Shown here: one piece after another, positions 4,678-36,244 of the stretch
Layout of the letters: every line of letters begins with the position of its first letter
Numbering within the stretch: position 1 is the first letter of the stretch
IMG/VR virus record: IMGVR_UViG_3300030339_000923
Coordinates: 1 to 36,244 of that record
Length of the DNA: 36,244 nt
Direction: 5' to 3' (one strand)
Source: a virus
Made by a program: the position numbers and the translations under genes
The notes under the pieces: generated by a model
Seen by the model: the letters and a program-made list of their open reading frames with translations, nothing else
Told to the model about the DNA's origin: nothing
Databases searched by the model: none

Positions 4678-4692
4678 TTATTATATTTTTAT

Positions 4693-5682: not shown

Positions 5683-5683
5683 T

Positions 5684-6256: not shown

Positions 6257-6257
6257 A

Positions 6258-6530: not shown

Positions 6531-6531
6531 A

Positions 6532-12083: not shown

Positions 12084-12085
12084 AA

Positions 12086-14013: not shown

Positions 14014-14022
14014 TAATAAATT

Positions 14023-14602: not shown

Positions 14603-14611
14603 TTTTATTTA

Positions 14612-16072: not shown

Positions 16073-16081
16073 TTTTAATTA

Positions 16082-16369: not shown

Positions 16370-16373
16370 ATTC

Positions 16374-17108: not shown

Positions 17109-17997
17109 ATGCTTTTTCTTTTATTAATGTTCCCTTATAATAACCTAACATTCTTTCAACATCATTTTTTAAATAATCCAATTCATAAATTGTTTCTTTA
17201 TTATCATGATCATAATGAATTAACATTAAGCCTGCAATATTTAATGTAGGATCTAACATTTGAATCATCCAAGCATAAGTAGATAGTTGTACTGCATAAT
17301 GCCAATAATTTGAATCCTGCAATGTATTTAAAGGATATTGCATCATTTGTTTTTTCTTTGTATTTATATCAAAATATGAAGATTTATTTATAGCTTTATT
17401 GGTTTTGTAATCTAATATGTAAACATCCTTACCATCTATAATAACTAAATCAGCTTGTCCAGCTAATCTAAATATTCCATCTTCTGATATTCTACTTAAT
17501 AATAATTCTGGGTAGATTCCTTGATCTCCAATTTTTAATACATTATTAGTATAACATTTGAATTTACCTCCTAATCCATAACGTTTTAATTCTTTAGAAC
17601 TTCCACCTAAGTTTAAATCTTCATGCATTTTATGGATAATAGTCCCTCTTTCACATGCTTCAACATTCTTATTTTTCCATAGTTGAAGAATTTCTGCTTT
17701 TTTCTTAATAAAATCTTTGGCTTCTATATTAAATTGTGCAACATATTTTGCATCAAATTTTTTAGTTATCATTAATTTCTTTTTAGTATCAGCAAATATA
17801 CCAGCACCTACAAGTTCTTCAAGTGCTTTTACTGAACTCCAGAAATGTTCATTAAAAGGTTGTGCAAATTTTTCAATTAGAGTTGTGACTGATATGCACT
17901 TTAATCCAGATTTTTTATCAATATATAAATGTTCTTTATCATTATATTGTACACTATCATTTTCTTTATCTACTTTCATTCCCATTTTCATTATCAT
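17080..17997 (-). CDS. PD-(D/E)XK superfamily nuclease (Cas4/RecB-like)
   Basis: 305 aa. Core motifs in order are SVTTLIEKFAQPF near the N terminus, RGTIIHKMHEDL (the helical His motif of Cas4/RecB-type nucleases), AGQADLVII with the first metal-binding Asp, DVYILDYKTNKA with the D-x-K catalytic pair, and QLSTYAWMIQ with the trailing Gln/Tyr motif. Together these define an active-looking PD-(D/E)XK exonuclease, probably acting on phage DNA during recombination, replication or genome maturation. No iron-sulfur Cys cluster is visible, so it is not a full Cas4. It is second in the leftward operon. Four Trp are all TGG. Confidence 0.85.
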   Translation of the reverse strand: MIMKMGMKVDKENDSVQYNDKEHLYIDKKSGLKCISVTTLIEKFAQPFNEHFWSSVKALEELVGAGIFADTKKKLMITKKFDAKYVAQFNIEAKDFIKKKAEILQLWKNKNVEACERGTIIHKMHEDLNLGGSSKELKRYGLGGKFKCYTNNVLKIGDQGIYPELLLSRISEDGIFRLAGQADLVIIDGKDVYILDYKTNKAINKSSYFDINTKKKQMMQYPLNTLQDSNYWHYAVQLSTYAWMIQMLDPTLNIAGLMLIHYDHDNKETIYELDYLKNDVERMLGYYKGTLIKEKAYEKLKPIVY

Positions 17998-18005
17998 TTA
18001 AATTT

Positions 18006-18401
18006 TTATACTTCTGGTACAACTGTTATTACAGTTGTTTTCTTTTTTCTTTTTGCTCTACTTACCATAATTTTATTGTAAGCTATTTTAGTAGGGCAGT
18101 TATCTCCTAAACAACGTTCTGCATTTTGTCTATCTACTATAATCTCTAATTCTTGAATTCTTATTCCTAACTGTTTAATTTGGATTTCAAGTCTTGCATT
18201 TTGAGTTTCTAAAGCTTTATTTATTCTTTCAAATAATTCTACTTCCTCTAATCTTCTTTCAATATCAATTTTGTCAGTCTCTGCTTCTATTTTTTTAGTA
18301 TCAGCAGTACTTTTACGTCTCCCAAACAAGTATGAACTCAATCCTACTACTAGTGGAATAATTATAGTTCCAGCAGGTACTAATAATGCATTTACATCCA
18401 T
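18006..18401 (-). CDS. Membrane-anchored coiled-coil protein (first late leftward gene)
   Basis: 131 aa with an N-terminal transmembrane helix (VPAGTIIIPLVVGLSSYLF), then a basic GRRKS turn and a long charged coiled coil (about residues 40-95), ending in a basic tail with two Cys (RCLGDNCPTKI). It resembles small holin-, spanin- or scaffold-like membrane proteins, but no family is recognised. It is the first gene after the divergent promoter region. Confidence 0.6.
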   Translation of the reverse strand: MDVNALLVPAGTIIIPLVVGLSSYLFGRRKSTADTKKIEAETDKIDIERRLEEVELFERINKALETQNARLEIQIKQLGIRIQELEIIVDRQNAERCLGDNCPTKIAYNKIMVSRAKRKKKTTVITVVPEV

Positions 18402-18735: not shown

Positions 18736-19299
18736 ATGAAAATAAATATTGAAATATTAAAAGCAGGAGGACACTTCTCAAAGAAGTATATTGAAGCTGC
18801 TCATAAAAAACCAGGTGGATCTAATGTTGGAAAGGCAACATTTGCTGATGGTAGTAAAAGAACTGGCCCATATGCAGGTCCTTCTGGTGGTGCACCTAAA
18901 GGATCATACCCAATACCTGATTTAAAACATGCAAAGTCTGCATTAAGTTTAGCACATAATGCTCCTAATCCTAGTGGTATAAAATCAGCAGTATATCGTA
19001 AATACCCAGGATTAAAAAAGGATCAATCAGGTGGTACATTAGATACTGATAAATATTCAGGAGAAAATCAATCTGGTGCATCAGGTATAAAAATTAATCC
19101 AGCTAATAAAGGAAAATTTACTGCAACTAAAAAACGATTAGGTAAAAGTACAGAAGCACTTACACATAGTAAGAATACTCTTACAAAAAAAAGAGCTATC
19201 TTTGCACAGAATAGTAAAAAATGACATCATAAAGAAGGAGGAATAATTGAATATAGATCTCCTTTATTAAATAACTTAATGAATATAGTATGAGATTAA
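18736..19299 (+). CDS. Virion cargo-like protein with MKINIEILKAGG leader
   Basis: 187 aa, with TGA codons at 19222-19224 and 19291-19293 read as Trp; the standard code would stop it at residue 162. It begins with the shared N-terminal motif (MKINIEILKAGG). The middle (YPIPDLKHAKSALSLAHNAP, then VYRKYPGL) resembles a small helical domain common in phage and bacterial proteins (YPIPDxxHAxxAL...RKYP). The later KFTATKKRLGKSTEALTHSK is basic and resembles crAss-like virion proteins. After the first recoded Trp come HHKEGGIIE and a short tail. The stop TAA 19297-19299 overlaps the next start by 10 nt. It is probably packaged or ejected; function is otherwise unknown. Confidence 0.75.
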
Positions 19300-20465
19300 A
19301 TATTGAAAAACTTCAAGTAGGTGGAATATTTAAACCACAAGTTGATACTACAGGTTTCTATAATAGAGCAGTACAATTAAATGATAAAAATAAAAATCTA
19401 AATTGGATATCAAGACAAAATAATAATACTGGCAATGAATTAAAATATAAATTTAAACCTGAAGATAATCAAGAAGGAGTATATGGTACTATGTTAACAT
19501 CTTATACAGATGATAAACAAGGTAATCAATTAGCATTTCCACAAATCCAACAATTGCCTGGGCAAAATAAATTAACTTATTTTTCTAATTGAAAAGATGC
19601 ATTAAATTCTGCAATTAAAAATAAAGAAGTAATTAATATGGGTAAGGATGCAAATTTTGCAGATTATTATACTACAGTTGGTGATAAATTAAATCAACGT
19701 CCTGAAGTTTTACAAGAAGCAAAACAAGATTATAAAAAGAATACAAATATAAAACTAGTTAATATAATTCCATCCACAAAAAATAATTTTAAAATGTTTT
19801 TAAAAGGCGGTATTATAAAAGGACAAAGTGGTATTAATCTTCAAAACAATACAGTTAAACCACTTACTGATGATGGTATGACTAATTTTTCTTTTACAGA
19901 TTTAAATACACCTAGACCTAATCTTATTAATCCAGTATTACCTAAACCAACATTTAATAACATGGGAATTATAAATAACCCAAATACTTCTAAAGTAGTA
20001 GATGAAAATACATTTTTAAATTATTGAGCAAATCAAGAAAATAGTATTAAGAAAGGATGAGATCCAAATAAAAAAGTATGGCATCCTTATCCAAGTATAG
20101 AGAAAGGAGCTGATACAGTAGCTTATGGATTAAAGTTAGGTATAAATCCTGAGTTTGATAAGAGAGCTAAACTTGGAGTTACTGATCAAGAAGCTGCTGC
20201 TGAATTAAAAAATAGAATGGCAGCTGGTCAATTACAAATTAAATCTTATCTGAATAAAAATTATGGAACTGGATCTTATGATAAGTTACCAGATTCAACT
20301 AAATATGCAATGTTAGATTTACATTTAAATACTAAAAAAGGAATAGCAGGTTTTCCTGCATTTATAAAAGATGCAATTGCTAATAATAAACAAGGTATGT
20401 TAAAGGAAAGTGTACGACCTCAATTACCTACACGAACAGCTGCATTTCAAAAAACTTTTTTCTAG
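19290..20465 (+). CDS. Virion-associated lysozyme-like protein
   Basis: 391 aa, with TGA as Trp at 19590, 20025 and 20058 and ending in TAG. It starts with the shared motif MRLNIEKLQVGG and has FLKGGIIKGQSG in the middle. The C-terminal 150 residues form a muramidase-like domain: WHPYPSIEKGADTVAYGLKL has the expected catalytic Glu followed by a T/D and Y-G strand as in phage-type lysozymes. VTDQEAAAELKNRM and the AMLDLHLNTKKG helix follow. It should cleave the glycan of host peptidoglycan during genome entry, or at lysis. With the standard code the lysozyme domain would be detached from the N-terminal targeting part. The UAG stop shows that TAG is not recoded. Confidence 0.8.
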
Positions 20466-20486
20466 ATATATTAATAAATAAATTAA

Positions 20487-20867
20487 ATGAAATACAATCC
20501 ACAAAAATTACAAATGGGTAATGTTATCCGCCCTATTAACTCAGTAGATAACCCAGTTATTATAGATTACTTTAAAAAGAATCCATTACAATTAAGTAAA
20601 TTTGCTGGTCAAATGAATAGTACTCCACAGAATTCAATGGGTATGATAACAGATAATAAATGAGGACCTTATCATGAAGCTGCTAATAAATTTATAATGG
20701 CTAATCCAGTAACTCCTACAAGAGTAGATAGTATGGATTATGTTAATCCTAGAACTAGGGGAGTAATGAGAACTAATAGTATTGAGTTTGCTAAAAACTA
20801 TCCAGGTAAAACTCCACAACAATTAGGTGCACAATATTTAGGAATGTCTAAATTAAATATGCAATAA
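20487..20867 (+). CDS. Small cargo-like protein with MKYNPQKLQMG leader
   Basis: 126 aa, from ATG 20487-20489 to TAA 20865-20867. One TGA (20661-20663, codon 59) is read as Trp (DNK-W-GPYHEAA). It opens with MKYNPQKLQMG, the same N-terminal motif as its neighbours. The rest is polar, with no recognised domain. The gene is easily missed because the standard code truncates it at 58 codons. It is followed 2 nt later by the next gene. Confidence 0.7.
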
Positions 20868-20869
20868 TA

Positions 20870-22192
20870 ATGAGATTGAATATACAGAAATTACAAAGTT
20901 CTATATTAAAAGCACAACAAGGGATTGCAATTCAGAGGAATGATAATACTAAAGTTGCACCAATTAAAATGAAAGTTAATACTATACCTTTAACTAAGCA
21001 GCAACAATATAATTTTAAAAACTTTGGATCTTTAAATACTCCACAACAAATACATCAAACTCTAAGACAACAACCATTAGGTGAATCTTTAAAATCTAAA
21101 AAAATTGCTGAAGAAAATGTCAATACTAGAGAACGTCTGGCTAAATTTACAGAAGAACAACGTATTGATAAAGAACGAGAATTAAAAGTTGCCCCATATG
21201 CTGCTATGGGATTAGTTGGTACTATAACTGGAACCCTTCCTGCTATGATTGGTAGTGAGATTGGCGGTAGAACAGTTGATAAAGTTAGCGAGAAATTAAC
21301 TGGTAAATCATGAGGTGAAAATGTATTACCAAAATATCCAGGGATTGGTGCATTAACTAATCCTGGATATATTCTTGGAGGAACAGCAGGAGCTGTCGCA
21401 ACAAACTTAGATAGAAAAATAGCAGAGATTGGATTAAGAGCTGGGGACTTTAATGTGGATAAATTAAAACATACTCTTCTTGATTCTAGTACACATAAAT
21501 ATTTATTAACTGGTGATGAAAATATATTAAAGACTGCAGGTTCTAGAGAAGTACCTTTTTCTAATAAAGCAATTCATGATTATAATGGTAGTATTAAATA
21601 TAGTTCAAGTAATCCAGCAGATTTAAATAAAGGGGATTATGTAGATATATTTTTAGGTAGAAATAAACCTACAGATTTTCGTGAAATTAAAACAAACGAT
21701 TTTGGAATTCATAATGATTATATAAATAAAAATTATCCTACTAAAAAAAATAATATAAGAACATTCTCAACATCTTCTTCAGATGAACCTAGTATAAAAC
21801 CTGTACGTCAAGTTAATATTGATAGTAGAAAAAAGGATTTTAATCCAACTACTGGAATAAGAAGTATGGAAGGAGAAATAATAGGTGATTTAGGAGGAGT
21901 AGATGCTGGAGGACATTTAGAATATATAGTTAATCAAGGTGATAATTTTATTACTACTCAAAAACAAGATATTTGAAAATATAATCCTAAAGATTATATG
22001 AATAAATGAGAACGTAATTCATTAGATTCCCCATTAAAAAAACTATTAATAAATCCAATAAAGAAAGCAGGTTTGAATTTATTAGATAGAGTAGGAAATC
22101 CAATTATAACTAAAGGTGAATTAACAAAATATGTTGTAGATCCAAGTATGGATAATATACAATATTTAAATAATTACATCTACCACTTATAA
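20870..22192 (+). CDS. Large virion cargo-like protein with hydrophobic Gly-rich segment
   Basis: 440 aa with TGA as Trp at 21311, 21974 and 22007, ending TAA 22190-22192. It opens with MRLNIQKLQSS. About residues 105-130 are a hydrophobic Gly/Ala-rich stretch (YAAMGLVGTITGTLPAMIG), and a second (YILGGTAGAVA) comes after the first recoded Trp, suggesting membrane insertion during ejection. The C-terminal part (GGHLEYIVNQGDNF, then KQDI-W-KYNPKDYMNK-W) resembles the tails of other crAss-like virion proteins by memory. No enzyme motif is recognised. It is the last gene of this rightward set, followed by a strong terminator. Confidence 0.75.
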
Positions 22193-23369: not shown

Positions 23370-23387
23370 ATTATCATATATTATTTG

Positions 23388-23459
23388 CACCCTCCCAAGG
23401 ACTCGAACCCTGACTTACAAATTTTGAAGATTTGCGTGCTACCATTACACTACAAAGGT
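23388..23459 (-). tRNA. tRNA with anticodon UCA (UGA-reading, probably Trp)
   Basis: A 72-nt cloverleaf: acceptor arm mostly paired (one mismatch at 7-66), D stem GTGT/GCAC with loop AATGGTA, anticodon stem CAAAT/ATTTG with loop CTTCAAA, and T arm CAGGG/CCTTG with loop TTCGAGT. The anticodon TCA lies at 23425-23427, with U33 and A37 in place. The discriminator base is G73, as in tRNA-Trp, and the D arm resembles tRNA-Trp. CCA is not fully encoded. It reads UGA by normal pairing and explains the in-frame TGA codons in this genome. Trp charging is inferred from the protein positions of TGA. Confidence 0.9.
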
Positions 23460-24661: not shown

Positions 24662-25042
24662 TTATTTTTTAAGATCCCCCATAACACCACGAAGTAGTCT
24701 ATCTTCTACTCTATCAACACAAGCTTCAATAAACATTGTTAATCCTTCTATCATTTTTTCATTTTGTTCAGAAGGAAATCTATTATTTAATTTAATAGTT
24801 CTATCTAAAAGTACATATGCTAATTGTTCTGATTGTATTCCAGCTTCCATTGTACCATCATCATTTTTCTTTACAAAAGGAATAGCAATTTTAGTTTCAG
24901 TATATTCTGTAGTTCCGTTATTAAATCCTTTTGACATTTCTACTAAATAGTAATGTGCTCCTCCGTATACATCTCCTGGTGATACTTCTATTGTTTCTTG
25001 TTGGCTTGGGAAAACCATATATGGTAATTTAATCATTTCCAT
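24662..25042 (-). CDS. Possible Acb2/Tad1-hairpin-like protein
   Basis: 126 aa. The N-terminal half is beta-rich (GAHYYLVEMSKGFNNGTTEY). The C-terminal half is a helical hairpin (GIQSEQLAYVLLDRTIKLNNRFP, then NEKMIEGLTMFIEACVDRVEDR) ending RGVMGDLKK. That ending resembles the pattern GVxNExxLAVLIDR...FPxxENxxAxxKLxEAxxWLxxRxxxR..RGVxG seen in proteins I recall annotated as Acb2/Tad1-hairpin, which bind cyclic nucleotide signals of CBASS/Thoeris defence. The match is from memory and partial, so an anti-defence role is a hypothesis. It overlaps the thioredoxin gene by 14 nt. Confidence 0.6.
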   Translation of the reverse strand: MEMIKLPYMVFPSQQETIEVSPGDVYGGAHYYLVEMSKGFNNGTTEYTETKIAIPFVKKNDDGTMEAGIQSEQLAYVLLDRTIKLNNRFPSEQNEKMIEGLTMFIEACVDRVEDRLLRGVMGDLKK

Positions 25043-25298
25043 TTTTTATTTTATTTATTAATACTTTCAACTGTTCCTTGCTTTTGCTTCCAGTTGTTTT
25101 TAAAACTTGTATATTATTTTTAAAAAAGATTAGTGTTGGTATACTACGAATTTCGTATTGTTCTACTAGATCATCTTCTTCATCAATATTAATCTCTTTT
25201 ATTTCTAAATCAAACTCCAATGCTAACTCTTTCATTATAGGTGAAAGAGTTTTACATGGGTTGCATCAATCTGCTTGGAACTTTAATATTTTAATCAT
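25029..25298 (-). CDS. Thioredoxin with TGA-encoded active-site Trp
   Basis: 89 aa. The active site reads QAD-W-CNPCK, where the Trp is TGA (25266-25268); this is the conserved Trp of the thioredoxin WCxPC motif. The remaining fold is typical: EINIDEEDDL, YEIRSIPTLIFFKNN with the cis-Pro loop, and a C-terminal helix. It starts at ATG 25296-25298. The standard code would leave only a fragment starting after the active site. The protein probably reduces disulfides in the host cytosol, perhaps aiding ribonucleotide reductase or assembly. Full expression depends on UGA readthrough. Confidence 0.9.
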
Positions 25299-27230: not shown

Positions 27231-27398
27231 TTAATATTTTTGATGGATTGTTTCTTGTAATTGTTTTATTTTAAATTCTAGTAAATCAATAGTTATTTCC
27301 ATTGAATTAACAATGTCTAATGTTTGCTTTATTAAATCTTTATATCTATCTTTATATATACTTGGATATACAACTTGTTTTTTCTTTTTACCTCACAT
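27231..27398 (-). CDS. Small basic protein with TGA at codon 2
   Basis: 55 aa: ATG 27396-27398 is followed immediately by TGA (27393-27395), then GKKKKQVVYPS... and a coiled-coil-like C terminus (IDLLEFKIKQLQETI). Reading TGA as Trp gives M-W-GKKKKQ, an open frame that ends 2 nt before the next gene. With the standard code there is no useful start. An internal ATG at codon 33 would drop most of the protein. Placing the recoded codon second makes expression wholly dependent on UGA readthrough. Function unknown; the basic N terminus suggests nucleic-acid or membrane contact. Confidence 0.55.
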
Positions 27399-27719: not shown

Positions 27720-28466
27720 TTATATAATCTCTATTGGTTTATATTCTAATTCTTTTGATTCTTTTAACTGTTGTTGTAGTTTTACGTTTTCTTTTAATAC
27801 TAAATTCATAGTCTTATTAAAAGTATCTTCTAAAGAATTTAAACGTTCATCTGTTTCATTTAATCTATCTTCATGTTTCTGAAGAGTAAATACTATTGCT
27901 TGTTCTAATTCATTAAGATGAAACATTTTTTCATTAATCATTAATCCAGTTTCCATATCTTTCTTATCTGTTTTAATAATAGATAGATAGTTTTTCTCTA
28001 ATAAAGATTTATTATATTTTGTAACTGAATGAGGAGACATATTAATAATGTCTGCTAATTTTCTATCACTATAACTTACATTACCATAACCACCTTCTTT
28101 AAACATATATTGTTGAGTAGCAATTAAATATGCTTTTTCATTTGAGGATAGATCTTCTTTATCTAAAAAATCATATGAAAATGGTTCAAATTTTTTATGA
28201 GGATTAAATTTATATAAATTATTTCTTCCTTTTTTTGTTACTGTTATATAACCAAGAGATTTTAAATTCTCAATACACTTTCTTACAGTTGGTTTTGATG
28301 CACTTGCATGCCCCATAATAGTTTCCAATGATGGGAATGCTTCTTTGGTTATTGAATTCATATATCTTCTTATTGAAACATAAATTAAAAGATCCTTAGA
28401 AGATAGTTTATCATCGACTGTCATATTATTTGGAAGTTGTACGTGCCTTTTATTTTCTAATTCCAT
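27720..28466 (-). CDS. Tandem winged-helix DNA-binding protein (regulator or replication initiator)
   Basis: 248 aa. Two winged-helix segments are visible. The first (SSKDLLIYVSIRRYM, then FPSLETIMGHASASKPTVRKCI and LGYITVTKKGRNN) looks like HTH_36-type domains. The second is VSYSDRKLADIINMSPHSVTKY. The C-terminal 60 residues are coiled coil (NELEQAIVFTLQKHEDRLNE, then KENVKLQQQL), suggesting dimers. It is the first gene leftward of the iteron region and has its own TTTG/TAnnTTTG promoter. Candidate roles are repressor of the divergent early genes or initiator binding the three iterons upstream; the sequence does not decide. Confidence 0.75.
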   Translation of the reverse strand: MELENKRHVQLPNNMTVDDKLSSKDLLIYVSIRRYMNSITKEAFPSLETIMGHASASKPTVRKCIENLKSLGYITVTKKGRNNLYKFNPHKKFEPFSYDFLDKEDLSSNEKAYLIATQQYMFKEGGYGNVSYSDRKLADIINMSPHSVTKYNKSLLEKNYLSIIKTDKKDMETGLMINEKMFHLNELEQAIVFTLQKHEDRLNETDERLNSLEDTFNKTMNLVLKENVKLQQQLKESKELEYKPIEII

Positions 28467-28490
28467 TTTCTATTACTTTAATTTCTAATA

Positions 28491-28522
28491 CAAAGGTAAT
28501 AAAATTTTTTGGATAGTGCAAA
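28491..28522 (-). promoter_or_regulatory. Bacteroidetes-type promoter for leftward small-gene operon
   Basis: On the minus strand, TTTG (28519-28522), a 20-nt spacer, and TACCTTTG (28491-28498) match the Bacteroidetes primary promoter (TTTG, 19-20 nt, TAnnTTTG). It lies 25 nt upstream of the winged-helix gene and should drive the leftward small-gene run. Confidence 0.75.
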
Positions 28523-28589
28523 TAAATAGTGTAAATTTAACATATTTTAATACTTTAATTTTCATAGTGAAAGTTTTTGCATAGAGGTT

Positions 28590-28648
28590 GTGCAAAAAAT
28601 ACCCCAAGGGTGTGCAAAATGTACCCCGATGCGTGCAAAAAGTACCCT
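28590..28648. repeat. Three 16-bp iterons GTGCAAAAwrTACCCy
   Basis: Direct repeats at 28590-28605, 28612-28627 and 28633-28648 read GTGCAAAAAATACCCC, GTGCAAAATGTACCCC and GTGCAAAAAGTACCCT. Spacing of 22 and 21 bp places them on the same helix face, two turns apart. They lie 70 bp upstream of the leftward promoter and beside the winged-helix gene, so they are candidate binding sites for that protein, as operator or origin iterons. Confidence 0.8.
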
Positions 28649-28942
28649 CTAACTATACTTACTTATACTTATATAATTATACTTACTAGGAATTTTCTTC
28701 GAAATTTCCTCAAGAAAAATAAAAAATTTTTTATATATGTATAATTTTAGTTAGGAATTTTAGTGCCCCCCTTAAGATGATTATAGATTGATTTGCTAAG
28801 GAGATTGAAAAAAAATTTTATATATATTTTTTACAGGTGAGAGCTGTTGGTCTTTACTCCCCCAAGCCTTAAGGAGAGTAAAATGAATTCGTAGAAAATT
28901 CGTCCTCTGTTCACTAAATATAAACAAATAAAAAAACTTATT
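28649..28942. other. AT-rich leader region upstream of 28943 gene
   Basis: No gene is seen. It contains repeated TATACTTA-like units at about 28653-28688, an AT-rich stretch to about 28830 suited to DNA melting, and a hairpin with stem TTTACTC (28853-28859) and GAGTAAA (28876-28882) in the leader of the next gene. With the iterons it could form an origin or a rightward promoter. Confidence 0.5.
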
Positions 28943-29446
28943 ATGGCTGAAAACAAAAATGTTGCAACTGAAACTGTTGCTCCTAAAACTTATCTTGATC
29001 GTGTTGTAACATTGGAATCACTTGAAGCACGTGCTTTACTTGATCCAAGTTTCGCTAATTCTTTTAATGGAATCGAAACCTTACAAGCCGGTCAAATCCT
29101 TACATTTCCTACTATCATTCCAATCACTGAAAAATTCTTCAATGATAAACCTTACAATTCTGTTGTAACTGTTGATGGTAAAGAAATTGCATTTTCTCAA
29201 TTTACTCGTAATGATTATGCTGGTACTCCAATCAATCCTAAATTTTCAGGATTAGGTTTCGCCACTATCATTGCATTGCTTTCAGGTAAAACTGCTATGG
29301 TTCAAAAGACTATTGTAAATATGCCTACTTATGTTGAAGTCAAAGGTAAACGTGTTCGTTCTATTGAAGCTTCTTCTCTTTGTGCACCAAAGTCTGTTAA
29401 TTACTTTGTAATTGCTGGTGTACAAGAAGCATTGCTTGCTGACTAA
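28943..29446 (+). CDS. Hypothetical protein, probably abundant, 167 aa
   Basis: MAENKNVATETVAPKTYL..., with ESLEARALLDPSFANSF, GQILTFPTIIP and VEVKGKRVRSIEASSLCAP. No domain is recognised; small proteins with this LDPSFxNSF...LTFPT layout recur in Bacteroidales phages by memory. Codon choice is less AT-biased than neighbours (more GGT, GTT, ATC, TTC), as for a highly expressed gene. It has its own leader hairpin and terminator. No Trp at all. It is the first rightward gene beyond the control region. Confidence 0.75.
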   Translation: MAENKNVATETVAPKTYLDRVVTLESLEARALLDPSFANSFNGIETLQAGQILTFPTIIPITEKFFNDKPYNSVVTVDGKEIAFSQFTRNDYAGTPINPKFSGLGFATIIALLSGKTAMVQKTIVNMPTYVEVKGKRVRSIEASSLCAPKSVNYFVIAGVQEALLAD

Positions 29447-29455
29447 ATTAATTAA

Positions 29456-29493
29456 TTGAGAACTCTACATAATCGTAGGGTTCTCAATTCTTT
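29456..29493 (+). terminator. Rho-independent terminator after 28943 gene
   Basis: A 13-bp stem (29456-29468 with 29475-29487, one G-T pair) and 6-nt loop ATAATC are followed by TTCTTT. Starts 9 nt past the stop codon. Confidence 0.85.
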
Positions 29494-29647
29494 ACAACCA
29501 GAGAAATAGCATTGGTAATTAACTATTCTCCTATTCGAGAAATAGTAATGATAACTGTTATTCAATCACAGATACCCGAATGTATACCAAAATGGATATA
29601 CTAACAAACTTCTCAGTTATTCTCGCAAATTTCTAATCGATTCCCAA

Positions 29648-29848
29648 ATGTATATCAATAAAGTACTAGCTATTAAAATTGTTCGAGGTCGTTTAATTGG
29701 TAGATGTTTACTACATTCTCGCAATAAAGATTATCAAGTTGGTATTTGGGATAATTTATATGAGCCACAACTATCTGGAAAGCTTTGCTATTTTAAGTTG
29801 GTAAAGTATAAGATCGGATGGATAATTAATGATTTTGTTTATGTTTAA
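29648..29848 (+). CDS. Hypothetical protein, 66 aa
   Basis: MYINKVLAIKIVRGRLIGRC... with a beta-rich body (YFKLVKYKIGWIINDFVYV) and two TGG Trp. The start ATG 29648 has no clear leader motif. No function or family is recognised; a small early phage protein is the best description. Confidence 0.5.
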   Translation: MYINKVLAIKIVRGRLIGRCLLHSRNKDYQVGIWDNLYEPQLSGKLCYFKLVKYKIGWIINDFVYV

Positions 29849-30245
29849 TAAATTTCTTTCTACAAAACTCAAAATTCGAGAAAGGATAATGCTAGATTTC
29901 AAAAGTGTTTACAAATGCATTATACCTGGACAAGAGGTCCTAAATTAATAGTCGAAGATTTATGAAAGTAAGTCTTTGGCTTTTAATGATAATATTATGA
30001 GAATTTTAGGTGAGTGATGAATGAGAACTGCCTAAGCCTTTCTTCTAAACGTAAACCAAACTACCCTTTCCAGAACTTTTTCCAATTCCAATTCACAACT
30101 TTGTATAACCTCGAAACGCAAAATCTTACCAATCTCTTTTTATTATTGCAGAGTGCAAATGTTTACAATTCGTAAATATTGATCTTATCATTTCGATAAG
30201 GTTTAGATCCATAGCGATGCTTAAACTCAAAAAAACTCAAATATT
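29849..30245 (+). other. Gene-free stretch with leader hairpin
   Basis: About 400 bases with only tiny frames under 20 codons. Near the end is a two-part hairpin: GATC (30181-30184) with GATC (30206-30209), enclosing CTTATC (30184-30189) with GATAAG (30195-30200). Then comes a leader with two ACTCAAA units just before ATG 30246. No convincing TAnnTTTG promoter was seen. Confidence 0.5.
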
Positions 30246-30689
30246 ATGAAAGAATCTTTATCTTTAATAAGAGCTCAAAAAGCTGTTGCAATTATCAATG
30301 AATTAAAAGAACAAAAATCAGCATTTACAGGAATATCATTATCTCATGCTTTGAAAATGTCTGGTTGTCCTTATTCTCAATTTGTATTCAGTATTCTTAA
30401 AAAAACTGGAATGATTGTAAAATTCAAAAAAAGAGAATATGTTTTTGCTTATGATGCTCCAGTATATTACAAGACTATTCAAAAAGGTCTTGATGAATGT
30501 GCTACTAATCAATTAGATTATACCAAAAAGTACAAAGGTAAACCCGAATTGGTTCAAAATTCTTTTGGAGATATAGTTTCAAACTCAGAAATTATAGATT
30601 TTATAGATCCAATTGAAGAAGCAATTGCATTGTTAAAAGCAAATGGATATAAACTTCAACGCCCAGTAATTAAGTATGAAAATTGTTAA
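30246..30689 (+). CDS. Hypothetical early protein, 147 aa
   Basis: MKESLSLIRAQKAVAIINEL..., then SLSHALKMSGCPYSQFVFSIL and KKTGMIVKFKKREYVFAY, a layout that could be a winged-helix fold. The C terminus (EEAIALLKANGYKLQRPVIK) resembles the end of uncharacterised Bacteroidales phage proteins. No Trp. The start is preceded by a double ACTCAAA leader, shared with other genes of this region. Function unknown; DNA binding is a guess. Confidence 0.65.
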   Translation: MKESLSLIRAQKAVAIINELKEQKSAFTGISLSHALKMSGCPYSQFVFSILKKTGMIVKFKKREYVFAYDAPVYYKTIQKGLDECATNQLDYTKKYKGKPELVQNSFGDIVSNSEIIDFIDPIEEAIALLKANGYKLQRPVIKYENC

Positions 30690-30698
30690 ACATTTATC

Positions 30699-30725
30699 AA
30701 GGGAATAGTAATCTATTATTCCTTT
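30699..30725 (+). terminator. Weak hairpin between 30246 and 30774 genes
   Basis: A stem of about 8 bp (AAGG plus AATA against TATT plus CCTT, one bulged G) with a 9-nt loop lies 10 nt after the stop. The T-run is short (TTTAATTT), so it may be a processing site rather than a terminator. Confidence 0.4.
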
Positions 30726-30773
30726 AATTTAAACTTAATTGTATAATCTTTAAAACTCAAAAACTCAAATTAT

Positions 30774-31010
30774 ATGCACGTTATAACTAATTTCAAACTT
30801 ATTAGAATTAAGATCCTTAATCTTAATACTACATTACAAAATCAATTTATTGATAAATTAGAAAAAGAATTATCTTTGCCTAATTTTGTAGATTTAATGG
30901 TTAATAATACCATTAGTAAATGTTATTTTGGTAATGATGAAAGACAAATCATTTTTCTTTTTAACGATAATGCAGGTGAATTCATTACTAGTTATTGTAT
31001 ATCATTGTAA
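30774..31010 (+). CDS. Hypothetical early protein, 78 aa
   Basis: MHVITNFKLIRIKILNLNTT..., Asn-rich and beta-rich (RQIIFLFNDNAGEFITSY). No Trp and no domain recognised. The leader AAAACTCAAAAACTCAAA ends 5 nt before the ATG. Small size and leader type match its neighbours; function unknown. Confidence 0.6.
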   Translation: MHVITNFKLIRIKILNLNTTLQNQFIDKLEKELSLPNFVDLMVNNTISKCYFGNDERQIIFLFNDNAGEFITSYCISL

Positions 31011-31132
31011 AATATATTCTCGAAAAATAGACGATTTACCAAAATTGTTTATCTGATTATTGAATTTCTGAACTGTTATAATAGAGGTATTATAAAGAAA
31101 GCGATTGAAAATAATATAGAGAATAATAATTT

Positions 31133-31217
31133 AAAAAGAAATGTAATCAGTTTATGCCTTCTTGAAGGTGTTGCATGCGGTGTATAATAGTCCGAAGCCT
31201 GTATTACATTTCTTTTT
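31133..31217 (+). ncRNA. Structured RNA closed by a 15-bp stem
   Basis: Perfect 15-bp closing stem, 31133-31147 against 31203-31217, followed by a T-run. A second closing helix CAG (31148-31150) with CTG (31199-31201) continues inside. The 48-nt interior includes CCTT/AAGG around loop CTTG, the palindrome GCATGC, and CGG...CCG. The long stem with a branched, G+C-richer interior points to a discrete RNA (regulatory leader, small RNA or unknown ribozyme) and not a simple terminator. No known family was recognised. Confidence 0.6.
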
Positions 31218-31334
31218 TTAACTCTAAAAGCGGGGTTTATCACTAATATAATGCGAAGTGAAACAGTGATTTTTTATTAAACTCAACCAGGAGAGTTTAG
31301 ATCAAATGTGCAAGCACATTTAATCTTATAAAAT

Positions 31335-31375
31335 AGTGTCTGATGAGACTGGACGAAATATATATGTATTACACT
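31335..31375 (+). ncRNA. Candidate hammerhead ribozyme in 5' leader
   Basis: Core CTGATGA (31340-31346) and GAAA (31355-31358) are in order. Stem I is AGTGT (31335-31339) with ACACT (31371-31375). Stem III is ATAT (31358-31361) with GTAT (31366-31369) around loop ATAT, with U at 31370 in the H17 cleavage position. Stem II (GACTGGAC, 31347-31354) is short, with one mismatched pair, which is the weak point. Predicted cleavage after 31370 leaves a 19-nt leader beginning ACACTCAAAA before ATG 31390. Confidence 0.45.
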
Positions 31376-31389
31376 CAAAAATACTTATT

Positions 31390-31989
31390 ATGATTACTGA
31401 AACAATGTCTAGAAAAGAAATAGTTGATGAAATACTATTAGATACAAAAGAATTAATACAAAAAACTTTACATTCAACAGTATTTCATAGTATAACTAAA
31501 GTATTTGTAAGAAAGCGTAAAACTTTTAATTATCCAATAATTTTTAAAACATCTGAAACAATAATATCAAAAAGAAACAATAATTATTTAATTATTTATG
31601 CTTCTGATAATATTGATAATTTAGGAGCAAATCATTTATGTTCATATATAAAAAATAATAAAAAACAATATGTTTTAATAAATTTTACTGAACAACATTG
31701 TTTTTTTATATCTGAACATTTTTTATCTCGATTTAAAGAAAGAAGTGAATATTTAATTGATTCTGATTTACCTTATTTCTTATTAAAAGAAATATGTATA
31801 CCTGAAGGTAATAATATTCCCGATAAAAATCATTTAATGTTTTTAAAAACATTATCTGGATTAGCTATTTTATCTAAAATTGATAATTATTGTGTATATG
31901 TAACATATATGAAAAATAATTTATCTTATGATAAGCAGCAAATTTTAAATGAATTAAATCTTTCTCAAATAATTGCTAAAGAAATTTAA
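31390..31989 (+). CDS. Hypothetical protein, 199 aa
   Basis: From ATG 31390 (a GTG start at 31336 would lie in the ribozyme-like leader): MITETMSRKEIVDEILLDT..., beta-rich with FFISEHFLSRFKERSEYLID. That segment resembles, loosely, proteins with an HFxxRFxER pattern found in phages and bacteria. No Trp. No domain is assigned. Very AT-rich codon use compared with 28943. Confidence 0.65.
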   Translation: MITETMSRKEIVDEILLDTKELIQKTLHSTVFHSITKVFVRKRKTFNYPIIFKTSETIISKRNNNYLIIYASDNIDNLGANHLCSYIKNNKKQYVLINFTEQHCFFISEHFLSRFKERSEYLIDSDLPYFLLKEICIPEGNNIPDKNHLMFLKTLSGLAILSKIDNYCVYVTYMKNNLSYDKQQILNELNLSQIIAKEI

Positions 31990-32008
31990 ACTCAAAAACT
32001 TAATCAAA

Positions 32009-32437
32009 ATGAACAAAATTATTCGTATCGCATTACAGAACAAATTCCCAGGAATTGAAATTGAAGCATTAATGGAAGTTATCAATCAAACTCCAAATGC
32101 AGTCATTGCAGTTGAAACTCTTATGAATGTATATGAAGTTCCTGATATTTCTAAAACATCTATTTATCCTCAAGGATCATCCAAAATTTGCCGCTTTAAA
32201 TCATTTGATAAATATACTGAAAAAGTAACTTATGAGTATGATTCAACTGAAAGTAAAACATTGTATTTTGATACAAAAGAAATTGCCGAAGAATCTAATT
32301 CATATGATTTAGCTGTTTCTAATAAAACAGGTAGAGATTATTATTCTCGTGATGATTTCCGTGCTGAAAAATCATTTAGAATTCCATGTGTGAGTAAATT
32401 AACATGTGATTTAGAATCTTGGAATGGTTGTAAATAA
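32009..32437 (+). CDS. Hypothetical protein, 142 aa
   Basis: MNKIIRIALQNKFPGIEIEA... helical first half (MEVINQTPNAVIAVETLMNV), then a beta-rich half with three Cys and SWNGC at the end. The single Trp is TGG. The leader AAACTCAAAAAC lies about 10 nt upstream of the start. No family recognised. Confidence 0.65.
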   Translation: MNKIIRIALQNKFPGIEIEALMEVINQTPNAVIAVETLMNVYEVPDISKTSIYPQGSSKICRFKSFDKYTEKVTYEYDSTESKTLYFDTKEIAEESNSYDLAVSNKTGRDYYSRDDFRAEKSFRIPCVSKLTCDLESWNGCK

Positions 32438-32448
32438 TATATTTTTTG

Positions 32449-32482
32449 AGTTTCCAATCCACATAAATGTGGTGCGGAAACT
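32449..32482 (+). other. Hairpin with 3x3 internal loop in leader
   Basis: Outer stem AGTTTCC (32449-32455) with GGAAACT (32476-32482), a symmetrical AAT/TGC internal loop, and inner stem CCACA with TGTGG around TAAA. It sits between two genes, 18 nt before the next ATG, with no T-run after it. Candidate processing or protein-binding site. Confidence 0.7.
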
Positions 32483-32500
32483 TAATTAAAACTCTTAATC

Positions 32501-32887
32501 ATGAATAAAAATCAAGCATATTTAGCAATGCAACAAGGTCATAAAGTTTGTAATGAATATTATTCACCTGAAGAATATGCATTTATAAATGATAATAACC
32601 TTATTGAGTATGAAGATGGTTGCGTAGTTGGTAATCAATACAGTGAAAACTGGGTTAAATATCAAGATCCAGAACATAAACTTGAATGGTATTATTGGAT
32701 ATCAAAAGATGTTAGATCTGATACTTCTCAGAATTCAATATCTGATCCATATTTAGAAAGATTAGGTGATGATATATCATTGATCCCTTTAATGTTTACT
32801 AATCCAATGCAAGGATATAATGATTGTAAATTCTATTCAAAAAAGGAATTCATTCCAAAGAATCATAAACGCACAAATCGCAGATGA
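32501..32887 (+). CDS. Hypothetical protein, 128 aa, ending in TGA
   Basis: MNKNQAYLAMQQGHKVCNEY..., with ENWVKYQDPEHKLEWYYW (three TGG Trp) and KKEFIPKNHKRTNRR at the end. It resembles small phage proteins of unknown function. Its stop is TGA 32885-32887, overlapping the next ATG (ATGA). If TGA were Trp here the protein would gain only eight residues (KQFKMV-type tail) and overlap the next gene, so stop is favoured. Trp use is TGG only. Confidence 0.65.
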   Translation: MNKNQAYLAMQQGHKVCNEYYSPEEYAFINDNNLIEYEDGCVVGNQYSENWVKYQDPEHKLEWYYWISKDVRSDTSQNSISDPYLERLGDDISLIPLMFTNPMQGYNDCKFYSKKEFIPKNHKRTNRR

Positions 32888-33087
32888 AAACAATTCAAAA
32901 TGGTTTAGTTAATTTTCCAGAAATTCAACAAGCATTAGCAACTGATATTGATAATCTAATTCATACTACAATTAGTAATAAAGGACATTTAGCTGATGTT
33001 TCTTGTAGTCTTCGTTTGATTGCTTCAAGTTTAAACTTAAAAGCAGATAAACTATCAATTCTTTTTAATCAACAAAAATTAGACTAA
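32884..33087 (+). CDS. Hypothetical protein, 67 aa
   Basis: MKTIQNGLVNFPEIQQALAT..., entirely helical in appearance (ADVSCSLRLIASSLNLKADK). No Trp and no family recognised. ATGA coupling to the upstream gene and a 1-nt overlap (TAATG) with the downstream lipoprotein gene support it as real. Confidence 0.6.
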   Translation: MKTIQNGLVNFPEIQQALATDIDNLIHTTISNKGHLADVSCSLRLIASSLNLKADKLSILFNQQKLD

Positions 33088-33362
33088 TGAAAAAACTTAT
33101 ATTATTTCTTATAATTGTATTAACTCTTTCTTGTACTTCTCAAAGTGGTAAAAAAGAACATTTATTAGTTATTCAAACTGAACTTCAACGTTTTAATGCA
33201 ATACCATCTCCGTTAATATTAAAAGATTATACTTTTGAAAATGGAGTAACTGAACAAGTTGTAATTATGCAACATAATGATTCAATTATTATATTTCGAG
33301 GTAGAAATCCATTAACAGAATATTTATTAAAAACATACAATAGAAATGATACTATAAAATAA
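33087..33362 (+). CDS. Small lipoprotein, 91 aa
   Basis: The N-terminal signal MKKLILFLIIVLTLSCTSQ has a lipobox (LTLSC) for lipidation at Cys16, placing the mature protein on the inner or outer membrane. The rest is beta-rich (YTFENGVTEQVVIMQHND). No Trp. Possible roles include superinfection exclusion, spanin-like lysis or envelope modulation; the sequence does not decide. Confidence 0.65.
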   Translation: MKKLILFLIIVLTLSCTSQSGKKEHLLVIQTELQRFNAIPSPLILKDYTFENGVTEQVVIMQHNDSIIIFRGRNPLTEYLLKTYNRNDTIK

Positions 33363-33517
33363 AGTTATTCAATAACCGAAAGTGGGGGTCCAATTCATGA
33401 ACAGTTAGCTCTATGTTAACAAGAGATATGATTGGGGTAAAAAACAAAATGAAATACACGGAATGACTTTATTTTTCTTTAATCATAGTTATTAAATTTA
33501 CTTAACTCAAAATTCAA
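33363..33517 (+). other. Short gene-free leader with hairpins
   Basis: 155 bases. A hairpin GTTAT/ATAAC (near 33364-33376) and CCAAT...ATTGG pairing (about 33391-33438) are visible, followed by a leader AACTCAAAATTCAA just before ATG 33518. No gene seen. Confidence 0.45.
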
Positions 33518-33715
33518 ATGAAATTAATCAAATCTATTATCATTGTAATTATGATTTTAATTATAGTGACTATTCTCTCTGTTTCTCTATATACAGTACT
33601 ACATGGTAGTTGGTATGGAGTAGTTTGTTGGCCTTTTATGATTGTTGGTTTTCTTTATTCTTCTATTTTTGGAATAATTAAATTTGATCATTGGTTTCAT
33701 AAACAATTGAAATAA
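33518..33715 (+). CDS. Membrane protein with two transmembrane helices, 65 aa
   Basis: MKLIKSIIIVIMILIIVTIL... first helix, then a short loop with GSWYG and CWPF and a second hydrophobic helix (MIVGFLYSSIFGIIKF), ending HWFHKQLK. Trp are all TGG. The size and two-helix hairpin are holin- or superinfection-exclusion-like, but position in the probable early region argues against a late lysis role. Confidence 0.6.
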   Translation: MKLIKSIIIVIMILIIVTILSVSLYTVLHGSWYGVVCWPFMIVGFLYSSIFGIIKFDHWFHKQLK

Positions 33716-33885
33716 TGGAACAACTTTGTATTCTTTTTTTAAAACTATTCTCCATATTATGGGGAATAGTTATTATTATTTCAATTCCAGGTATTATAAC
33801 ACATAAACGTTCTTTTAATTTGTATTATAATGATATCTTCAAAATTACATTTTTTATCATTTGTGTAATCTCTTGGTTTGTATGA
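33715..33885 (+). CDS. Small membrane protein, 56 aa, TGA stop
   Basis: MEQLCILFLKLFSILWGIVI... has two hydrophobic segments (LWGIVIIISIPGIITHKR, FKITFFIICVISWFV). It starts in a TAATG overlap with the preceding gene and stops at TGA 33883-33885, overlapping the next ATG (ATGA). With TGA as Trp it would gain only WEV before TAA, so the alternative cannot be excluded. Trp codons are TGG. Confidence 0.55.
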   Translation: MEQLCILFLKLFSILWGIVIIISIPGIITHKRSFNLYYNDIFKITFFIICVISWFV

Positions 33886-34163
33886 GAAGTTTAAAAGAAT
33901 TATTATGTTTATTGTGGATTACAATAAACGCAGATGAAAATTTTGAATTTGGTTTATGCGCTACTGTAAATTATTTATCTCTAAAAGATAAACTTAATTT
34001 TTCTGAATATAAGTTATTATATAATTATATTCAAACAAATCGACCTAAATGGTATCAAAAACATTATAGTAAAGCTGATAAACATTCAGGTTATTATTGG
34101 GCACATGGTAGTAAACAACCAAGATTAGATTGGTTAACAACACATATTAAAAAACAAAAATAA
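33882..34163 (+). CDS. Hypothetical protein, 93 aa
   Basis: MRSLKELLCLLWITINADEN..., then NRPKWYQKHYSKADKHSGYYWAHGSKQPRLDW and a basic tail. Four Trp, all TGG. Start 33882 overlaps the upstream TGA; a GTG frame extension upstream is rejected. No family recognised. It is the last gene before the structured RNA region. Confidence 0.6.
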   Translation: MRSLKELLCLLWITINADENFEFGLCATVNYLSLKDKLNFSEYKLLYNYIQTNRPKWYQKHYSKADKHSGYYWAHGSKQPRLDWLTTHIKKQK

Positions 34164-34165
34164 AT

Positions 34166-34282
34166 GAATTAATTGAAACTGTAAAGAATTGAGATATATT
34201 GCGTGATTTATCACAATAAAATACCAAAGGCAATTACTCATCAATGTAATCGAACTGATAAAGGCAGCTCTTCAATTAATTA
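34166..34282 (+). ncRNA. Structured RNA closed by 11-bp stem
   Basis: AATTAATTGAA near 34166-34176 pairs perfectly with TTCAATTAATT near 34272-34282. Inside, GTGAT/ATCAC forms a hairpin and other partial stems are possible. No tRNA signature and no coding frame is seen. First of a run of folded elements in this 1.1-kb gene-free region. Confidence 0.45.
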
Positions 34283-34322
34283 ATAGCATAGTATCCAATG
34301 CCAGTTGTTCTGTCAACACGTC

Positions 34323-34360
34323 ACTCCATAATACTACAGCGGTAGTATTAACGTTGGAGT
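34323..34360 (+). ncRNA. Long hairpin with 15 bp
   Basis: ACTCCA + TAATACTAC (34323-34337) pairs with GTAGTATTA (34342-34350) + TGGAGT (34355-34360), loop AGCG, with one 4-nt bulge ACGT. A 5-bp hairpin TACAC/GTGTA follows about 5 nt later. Confidence 0.55.
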
Positions 34361-34397
34361 CGGTATACACTCTTCGTGTAGAAGAAAAAAGAAAAAG

Positions 34398-34455
34398 ACA
34401 TTATTTCAATTTTAAACGGTGCCATTGTTGCATTAGCTTTTTATGGAAATAATGT
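34398..34455 (+). ncRNA. Structured RNA closed by 10-bp stem
   Basis: ACATTATTTC (34398-34407) pairs with GAAATAATGT (34446-34455) around a 38-nt interior rich in short G+C pairings (GGTGCC...GTTGCA). Further on are a 7-bp hairpin GTATGTA/TACATGC and a 7-bp stem ATACCAA/TTGGTAT with 7-nt loop. No gene seen. Confidence 0.45.
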
Positions 34456-34693
34456 ATAGACGTAAATGTTTTAAAGCTAGAGTCGTCGGTATGTAATATC
34501 CTACATGCGAACCAAGAATGGATTAATAAAAACCTTTATAAAGGTAATTCTGATAAATACCAACTTACTCTTGGTATAAACAGAAAATTATATGAGTAAG
34601 ATATAATTGTACGATAGAATTTGTATAATGTCAATGGATATTATGTGAGTTTTCGTCGATGTTGATGAGTAATCATGAACATTCAAATTAATT

Positions 34694-34775
34694 AGTATTG
34701 GAATCATTGATTCTCGTGGTCACAGAATACACTCTGTTGAAAATAAGTCTAAAGAGGACTTTTACCACCAATACT
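34694..34775 (+). ncRNA. Cloverleaf-like structured RNA
   Basis: An 8-bp closing stem AGTATTGG (34694-34701) with CCAATACT (34768-34775) encloses three hairpins in order: AATC/GATT, ACAGA/TCTGT, and AAGTC/GACTT with a 7-nt loop. The overall shape is a four-way junction like tRNA, but D- and T-arm sequence marks are missing. It ends 2 nt before a tRNA-like element. Function unknown. Confidence 0.45.
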
Positions 34776-34777
34776 TA

Positions 34778-34847
34778 TCTCTTTCGTCTAATGGTAGGAC
34801 ATTATTGTAAAGCAATAAAAATTCAGGTTCGAATCCTGTGTGGAGAA
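34778..34847 (+). tRNA. tRNA-like element, anticodon uncertain
   Basis: D stem GTCT/GGAC with loop AATGGTA, anticodon stem TTATT/AATAA with loop GTAAAGC, T stem TCAGG/CCTGT with loop TTCGAAT, and a 5-bp acceptor stem TCTCT/GGAGA. Discriminator A is followed by CA. The anticodon by position is AAA, unusual. Junction next to the acceptor is 1 nt short and T stem has one mismatch. Could be a divergent tRNA or pseudo-tRNA. Confidence 0.45.
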
Positions 34848-34932
34848 CAACACAGAACTTACTTAAGTGTGATTCTGTATAGGGTAAGAAAGTCGACTTT
34901 CATCCTGCACTTACGACTGATCATTGTAAGTA

Positions 34933-34999
34933 GAGTAACTCGTCTAATTGGTTAGGGCACTCCGAAGAGGGGAGATAGGGTTCGATTCCCTAATACTCG
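34933..34999 (+). tRNA. Degenerate tRNA-like element
   Basis: D arm GTCT...GGGC with loop AATTGGTTA, T arm TAGGG/CCCTA with loop TTCGATT, acceptor GAGTA/TACTC, and discriminator G. The anticodon hairpin CTCC/GGAG has loop GAAGAGG without U33, and only 1 nt of variable loop remains. Likely a pseudo-tRNA or tRNA-like RNA rather than a working tRNA. Confidence 0.4.
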
Positions 35000-35221
35000 C
35001 TTAAATTTGCTTCTCTTATTATTATTAGTCCCTAGCAATGCTGATACTAATGAAATAAGAAGGAGTAATTTTTATTAGATAAACAAGTAGGTGTCACATT
35101 ACAGCCCTGAATACATTTAACGGATTAAATTCACTCTGATGTATTAAGACTTGCAGAAATTTGAATATTTTAACGATTAGTTTGGTACGTATAAGTTAAA
35201 CTTAGACTAGCCCATTAATAT

Positions 35222-35229
35222 TATATTTG
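35222..35229 (+). promoter_or_regulatory. Candidate promoter -7 box for lipoprotein gene
   Basis: TATATTTG matches the Bacteroidetes TAnnTTTG consensus and lies 53 nt upstream of ATG 35282. No good TTTG box is visible 20 nt further upstream. Confidence 0.4.
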
Positions 35230-35281
35230 CAAATTGTAAAGAGCCTTGTTTATTAATATTAAATTTAAAAAAATAAATCAT

Positions 35282-35392
35282 ATGAAGAAAATTCTCTTTT
35301 TATTTCTCATGTTATTTTTAATGAGTTGTATAACTACTAAAAAAGTTAAACAACCTGTAGTTTTTGATCATTCTTATATTGTAAATAAATGA
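35282..35392 (+). CDS. Short lipoprotein, 36 aa, TGA stop
   Basis: MKKILFLFLMLFLMSC is a signal peptide with lipobox LMSC; only about 20 residues follow (ITTKKVKQPVVFDH...). The stop TGA 35390-35392 overlaps the next ATG as ATGA. Read as Trp it would run 18 more residues of unlikely composition into the next gene, so stop is favoured. It may be a small membrane-anchored early protein. Confidence 0.6.
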   Translation: MKKILFLFLMLFLMSCITTKKVKQPVVFDHSYIVNK

Positions 35393-36244
35393 GATACACT
35401 CTTAATCAACTTAAAAATAACAAGAAAATTGTTGTTTATTTAGAAACAAAAACTGATTGGCAGAAATTATTTGATCTTAAGATGTTTAACATAACTGTTG
35501 AATATTATGGTTCTTATTGTTATTCTTTAATAGATGATACTTATAGTGGTAGTTCAACTAAAACTAATCCTGGTGCTTATAATCATGACACAATAATTGT
35601 ACAATTTGATGAAATAGATTTTGATATAAATATTGAAAATAAAGAATTTTTAGAATCTATTAGTTGCCCTTATCAAGAAGGTGATCTTCTTGAAGGAAAA
35701 ATTGCTGATAGATGGATTTCTGAAATGGTATTACATGTTGAAAATAAACATATATTTTTATGTCAAAATAATTGTAATGGTATGAAATGTATAGATAAAC
35801 AAGGTTATAGCTATTCTTATAATATTTATGATGAATATCCTAAAAAAAATTGGGAAGATTCATTACATCTTTATAAAGTCACTGAATTATGTTATATTAA
35901 TACTAAAACATTTACAAAATTAACAAAAGATATTATGTCTGATGGCTTACCAAAATATTTTTGTATTGAATATAATGATTCAATTATTAATAAATTAATT
36001 GAATTATTTCCTGACTCTCAAGTAAAAGATGAATATAACGAATATGGTGGAGGATCTTTAAATTATATTGGTAGAACTGAAGATTATGAGGAGTTTACTA
36101 TTAATGATAAAAGTTATTTCGAACATGAAGATGTTCTATTTATTACTTCAAATCAATTTGATGAATTTTTAGATGCTAAATATTCTGTAAAAGGAGAATT
36201 TGATTCTTTTTCACTTAATACTCCATTATTTGAATATCAACAAG
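35389..36244 (+). CDS. Large hypothetical protein (3' end beyond window)
   Basis: At least 285 codons run off the right edge: MRYTLNQLKNNKKIVVYLET..., acidic and rich in Tyr, Asn and Asp (YNEYGGGSLNYIGRTEDYEEF). Three Trp are TGG and there is no in-frame TGA, in contrast to late genes of similar size. No domain is recognised in the visible part. The start overlaps the TGA of the lipoprotein gene by 4 nt. Confidence 0.75.
   Translation, partial: MRYTLNQLKNNKKIVVYLETKTDWQKLFDLKMFNITVEYYGSYCYSLIDDTYSGSSTKTNPGAYNHDTIIVQFDEIDFDINIENKEFLESISCPYQEGDLLEGKIADRWISEMVLHVENKHIFLCQNNCNGMKCIDKQGYSYSYNIYDEYPKKNWEDSLHLYKVTELCYINTKTFTKLTKDIMSDGLPKYFCIEYNDSIINKLIELFPDSQVKDEYNEYGGGSLNYIGRTEDYEEFTINDKSYFEHEDVLFITSNQFDEFLDAKYSVKGEFDSFSLNTPLFEYQQ

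Follow-up and report, generated by a model that had tools for sequence, protein, structure and literature searches.

Can one stop codon hold two meanings within a single phage genome? The question is raised by IMG/VR virus record IMGVR_UViG_3300030339_000923, a linear fragment of 36,244 bases that was analysed entire and is called the window here, in which TGA ends several genes on one side and lies within reading frames on the other. A sequence-only reading of the window had proposed that the genetic code changes within it, with standard-code early genes followed by recoded late genes. The answer that we favour, with a probability of roughly 0.85, is that the window belongs to a crAss-like phage of ~167.5 kilobases (kb) that would use two translation regimes, its late genes being expressed by timed suppression of UGA; the order of events is read from gene function. 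The sequence shows that TGA stands for Trp in the virion genes and some of their neighbours, and that in the replication/early arm its one role is to terminate genes, apart from a few exceptions outside the window.

Open reading frames (ORFs) of the window were listed under genetic code tables 11 and 4, and TGA and TGG codons were then counted gene by gene. The predicted difference within the window was borne out. The rightward genes from 28.9 kb to the window end (Block E) contain 18 TGG and no in-frame TGA, all of the roughly 18 Trp codons being TGG as claimed, against 33 in-frame TGA and 45 TGG in the 37 genes left of 28.5 kb (Fisher test for the window alone, p=2.3e-4 by codon and p=0.027 by gene). 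Three Block E genes, beginning at 32501, 33715 and 35282, do end in a TGA that overlaps the next ATG. On the left, no gene ends in TGA, as had been stated for genes left of 27.4 kb, but the accompanying claim that these genes use TGA as a sense codon was too general, in-frame TGA being carried by only 14 of the 37.

The left side was resolved into four blocks. Virion genes of Block A, which include those for the terminase large subunit (TerL) and portal, contain 22 TGA and 16 TGG, and TGA codons here align with Trp in two relatives, MT835470 (H1) and MT835539 (H2). H1 has TGG at codon 90 of TerL and at codon 31 of gene 12086, and both H1 and H2 have it at codons 245 and 325 of the portal gene; some other left-side TGA align with Tyr, Ile or Asn of relatives rather than with Trp. 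Block B has 15 TGG and no TGA, all of its stops are TAA, and it is compatible with either code. Block C contains 9 TGA and 2 TGG. Block D (22.6-28.5 kb), with 2 TGA and 12 TGG, is read as TGA = Trp because the Trp of its thioredoxin active site is encoded by TGA. Recoding by strand is ruled out by Block C, whose genes (18.7-22.2 kb) point rightward and are nevertheless recoded, so that rightward orientation, the rule first offered for the standard code, does not hold. As Block C is rightward and recoded, and Block B lacks TGA, the code is set by neither strand nor coordinate.

Two further contigs extend the window. Sister contig IMGVR_UViG_3300030230_000014 (G001) is 99.9% identical to it and continues 19.5 kb beyond its end, and contig IMGVR_UViG_3300028772_000007 (G004; 125,282 bases) overlaps the distal end of G001 and terminates in window positions 1-1709. 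The three therefore close into a circle of the size given above, a composite of near-identical phages. The G001 continuation adds 62 TGG and no TGA, with TGA stops in 7 of 32 genes; together with the right block of the window this gives 0 TGA and 80 TGG, 10 of 46 genes having a TGA stop (p=1e-12 by codon). Genome-wide counts, for which ORFs were called mechanically from ATG starts, extend the split to the whole phage: 6 TGA against 302 TGG (6/308) and 18 TGA stops in the 149 genes of the right arm, and 80 TGA against 100 TGG (80/180) and no TGA stop in the remaining 61 genes. Counted by gene, TGA is present in 4 of 108 in the right arm and in 30 of 49 elsewhere (p=3e-15).

The replication/early module makes up the right arm, which encodes DNA polymerase, a DnaB-like helicase, primase, a second helicase, ligase, RNA ligase, ribonucleotide reductase, thymidylate synthase and NAMPT, together with ~20 tRNAs, tRNA-Trp(CCA) among them. 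Its four TGA-bearing genes, all outside the window, are two virion-like ones (tail-fibre-like and glycine-rich), that of an HNH nuclease and that of a Holliday junction resolvase. With TGA stops in this module, and virion genes and a tRNA(UCA) on the left, the proposed succession of standard-code early and recoded late genes fits the genome, in a temporal order suggested by gene function.

The strongest evidence comes from gene pairs that lie across the divide, in which location appears to predict code. A second, divergent phage, IMGVR_UViG_3300020045_005021 (G002), has its own tRNA(UCA); its leftward genes contain 23 TGA and 38 TGG, and in its right arm Trp is encoded almost solely by TGG (146 TGG, with four TGA stops). 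The split in G002 is known from these codon counts, its TerL and portal being too divergent for comparison at conserved Trp sites. Thioredoxin and gene 6258 carry TGA on the recoded side of the window; both lie in the right arm of G002, where they have TGG instead, and in G002 thioredoxin this TGG stands at the same active-site Trp. Gene 24662 of Block D stops at TAA where its homologue in the early arm of H1 has TGA. The right-arm gene 54851, which has a TGA stop, ends where its H1 homologue ends in TAA. Gene 32501 and its G002 homologue (53% identity) end at the same TGA, beyond which the two are unrelated (KQFKMV against KSCYCLH); a homologue that runs on past the TGA, the first contrary sign named by the sequence-only reading, is thus not what this comparison gave. 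H1 itself reads as standard code throughout, with no sign of recoding, and a suppressor tRNA was sought in it and not found.

A suppressor tRNA with anticodon UCA is encoded in the window, and its Trp identity elements (A1-U72 and G73), like its CUUCAAA loop, fit a Trp tRNA, which would be charged with Trp. Neither a release factor (PF00472) nor a Trp-type synthetase (PF00579) was found in the window, G001 or G004; an own release factor 1 (RF1) or tryptophanyl-tRNA synthetase (TrpRS) is a feature of some code-4 members and is not required. The code would most likely switch when the phage tRNA(UCA) appears, is charged by the TrpRS of the host and competes with the host's release factor 2 (RF2). 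The early arm would be translated first, while host RF2 terminates at UGA, and the leftward transcript bearing tRNA-Trp(UCA) would be made next. Once this tRNA is charged by host TrpRS, UGA suppression would permit full-length late proteins, and early genes still translated at that stage would gain merely short tails, because the next TAA or TAG lies within a few codons. The rule would then be the time when a product is needed, not strand or position.

Several observations weigh against this scheme. In H1, TGA stops are found in 22 of 68 early genes against 5 of 46 late genes (p=0.013; one genome and a small sample). As this early bias exists without recoding, the three TGA stops of the window are by themselves weak evidence, and TGA-stop usage alone was rejected as a demonstration that the code switches; what does prove a switch is TGA in frame where relatives conserve a Trp. 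Besides the virion-like genes, in-frame TGA occurs in the right arm in the Holliday junction resolvase and in the HNH nuclease. Such codons in other early genes were the sign that the sequence-only reading itself had named as contrary: none occurs in the window, and outside it the expectation gives way weakly, at these 2 of ~149 genes. With neither a release factor nor TrpRS of the phage's own found, suppression by tRNA(UCA) would have to compete with host RF2. The peptidoglycan (PG)-binding endolysin and GroEL are without TGA, so recoding does not lock every late or lysis gene.

The exceptions in the right arm also suggest a refinement of timed suppression. The glycine-rich protein is probably virion-like, to judge from position and composition, and the resolvase is plausibly needed late, at packaging. 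Because the TGA-bearing virion-like genes and the resolvase sit among co-oriented right-arm neighbours that use TGA as stop, in-frame UGA might time genes one by one, as a tag that works independently of transcription, an idea that we put forward only tentatively. If it is true, one transcript could yield early proteins immediately and tagged proteins only once tRNA(UCA) appears.

The same counts might be obtained with no timed switch, if UGA suppression were constant and right-arm genes avoided in-frame TGA, being translated before the suppressor or without enough of it; leaky TGA ends would then add up to ~20 residues. In the window and sister contig 0-19 further codons (mean 5.4) separate a right-arm TGA stop from the next TAA or TAG, as such leakage would allow, and the phage genes include no release factor that was found. 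The distance is similarly short in standard-code H1, however (mean 9.2), so special back-up stops behind the right-arm TGA are not shown and we do not claim them. The homologues of 32501, moreover, diverge right after their common TGA, so that selection does not maintain the tail as part of the protein. We consider constant suppression unlikely.

A mosaic origin seems more improbable still. The right arm would have come from a standard-code phage, too recently for it to have gained TGA, and the boundary would mark recombination, not regulation. Right-arm genes are indeed poorly conserved among relatives, and G002 has only short patches in common with them, but the left/right split is repeated in two divergent phages (the window species and G002), virion-like genes within the right arm are recoded when their neighbours are not, and where a gene lies on opposite sides in the two phages, its code matches the side on which it is found. 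Chance or an annotation artefact, arising from too few Trp codons or mis-called ORFs, has a negligible probability. The gene-level test within the window is modest, and 2 of the 18 TGG of Block E sit in an ORF of uncertain coding status (29648-29848), but none of the 80 codons counted with the sister contig is TGA, and this extension, with the genome-wide test by gene, has already refuted such an origin. Timed UGA suppression of late genes remains the reading that we prefer.

The code regime changes within a divergent intergenic region (28467-28942) that follows, on the left, a gene for a replication-initiator-like protein. Three iteron-like repeats of 22 base pairs (bp), of the TTGTGCAAAAAGTACCCC type, lie at window positions 28588-28648 just upstream of this gene (0.02 expected by chance), and a Bacteroidetes -33/-7-like promoter lies on the minus strand at 28491-28522, 25 bp ahead of it. 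Across the window the -33/-7 pattern was not enriched (2 found against 4 expected); only its placement ahead of the initiator gene is suggestive. The cumulative GC skew has its minimum close by, and the arrangement looks like an iteron-type replication origin.

Features of the window and of contig G004. Positions refer to the window unless G004 is named.
Feature	Position	Strand	Remarks
Block A, recoded virion genes (tail, portal, TerL)	1699..12667	-	
Portal protein	6532..8748	-	three in-frame TGA; phrog_6547
Terminase large subunit	9729..12083	-	four in-frame TGA; phrog_6681, E 3e-67
Block B, eight leftward genes	12685..18401	-	PG-binding endolysin, GroES, GroEL, nuclease
Block C, recoded rightward genes	18736..22192	+	
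Suppressor tRNA, anticodon UCA, Trp-like	23387..23459	-	ARAGORN; Rfam tRNA, 50.9 bits; alignment
Thioredoxin (Block D)	25029..25298	-	WCNPC active-site Trp = TGA; PF00085, E 4e-20
Small ORF	27231..27398	-	TGA as second codon (tentative)
Replication-initiator-like protein	27720..28466	-	HTH_36 / DnaD-like; no Trp codon
Divergent intergenic region	28467..28942	.	three iteron-like repeats and Bacteroidetes-like promoter
Block E, standard-code rightward genes	28943..36243	+	14 ORFs; start of early/replication arm
Gene ending in TGA	32501..32887	+	ATGA shared with start at 32884
Short membrane-type ORF ending in TGA	33715..33885	+	ATGA shared with ATG at 33882
Short lipoprotein-signal-like ORF ending in TGA	35282..35392	+	ATGA shared with ATG at 35389
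HNH nuclease, right arm	G004 17989-18774		TGA where the window's other HNH protein has Trp
Glycine-rich protein, right arm	G004 35255-36058		carries TGA
Tail-fibre-like protein, right arm	G004 36638-38428		three TGA
Holliday junction resolvase, right arm	G004 56611-57129		TGA at codon 17; no ATG/GTG/TTG between TGA and conserved domain

Other features were noted along the genome. Two proteins with Fib_succ_major domains (window 4693-5682 and 8729-9901, minus strand), lie on either side of the portal gene region; in-frame TGA is present in each, and they have in common a segment of 205 bases that is 71% identical. Within Block E, two stretches of 0.8 kb (29447-30245) and 1.1 kb (34164-35281) hold no convincing ORFs under either code. 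The second contains a weak tRNA-like match (34778-34848, plus strand; 30.3 bits, AAA anticodon, acceptor mismatches) that may be a decayed tRNA. A RAGATH-1 hammerhead-ribozyme-like match (31280-31375, plus strand; 44.5 bits against a family cut-off of 56.3, E 2e-4) stands directly 5' of gene 31390. Outside the window, the standard-code arm of the sister contig carries a phage transfer-messenger RNA (tmRNA; L017 8818-9237, minus strand; RF00023, 75.5 bits), whose tag region, read by eye, seems to close with AYAVAA and then TAA. In the relative H2, TAG is read as a sense codon (coding fraction 0.85 against 0.37), and a tRNA with a UUA anticodon is present (L015, MT835539, 6356-6440, minus strand). 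The TerL of H2 (29994-34241) matches in separate pieces across 4.2 kb, which is suggestive of introns.

The phage is crAss-like. It has homologous TerL and portal proteins, as in Crassvirales (phrog_6681 and phrog_6547), and the two opposed arms of the Crassvirales layout, one for replication and one for the virion; its TerL matched many crAss-like records by tblastn at 26-30% identity. Among the late ORFs of G004 are two of 2882 and 2909 amino acids. A near search of the phage collection gave no match. One genome here supports both readings of a stop codon, and it brings its own controls: gene families with members on either side of the divide, islands of recoding in the standard arm and a standard-code relative. 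The case matters for gene calling, which in such phages has to apply two codes simultaneously, and for the question whether stop-codon recoding times phage gene expression.

In its outline the arrangement matches the late-gene stop-codon recoding model reportedly set out by Borges et al. in 2022 (as cited in PMC9523058 and PMC10746230), whose standard-code early genes, recoded structural genes and suppressor tRNA as switch all have counterparts here. The relative H1 shares the order of the late genes (nuclease, GroES, TerL, portal) and an early arm that runs in the opposite direction; it differs in its standard code and in that no suppressor tRNA was found in it. Some code-4 phages encode RF1 and TrpRS (PMC10746230), neither of which was found in the three contigs of this phage. 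In a code-15 phage, early-phase peptides were without recoding (Peters 2022, PMC9523058). The Lera phage, a code 4 member of the Zeta crAss-like group (PMC12386605), resembles the present one in its tRNA-SUP-TCA, in TGA within TerL and structural genes, in ~18% of ORFs recoded and in having standard-code relatives nearby; unlike it, the Lera phage also has a CTA suppressor and carries TGA in its lysin and holin genes, whereas the PG-binding endolysin here has none. The closest precedent is a set of 243 crAss-like phages in which TAG is recoded to Gln or TGA to Trp, mostly just in those genome parts that hold putative late genes (Yutin 2021, PMC7886860). These phages share with ours TGA = Trp in TerL and portal, a UCA suppressor tRNA, recoding mostly of late genes and a replication module in the standard code. 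Ours is distant from them (TerL ~26-30% identical to that of named crAss-like phages and 51% to that of the unclassified MT835470), and its early arm also holds recoded virion-like islands, a tmRNA and tRNA-Trp(CCA). Because late-gene TGA-to-Trp recoding in crAss-like phages is already reported there (PMC7886860), the phenomenon is not new, being known from related gut phages, and the present phage is a well-resolved further case of recoding restricted to late genes.

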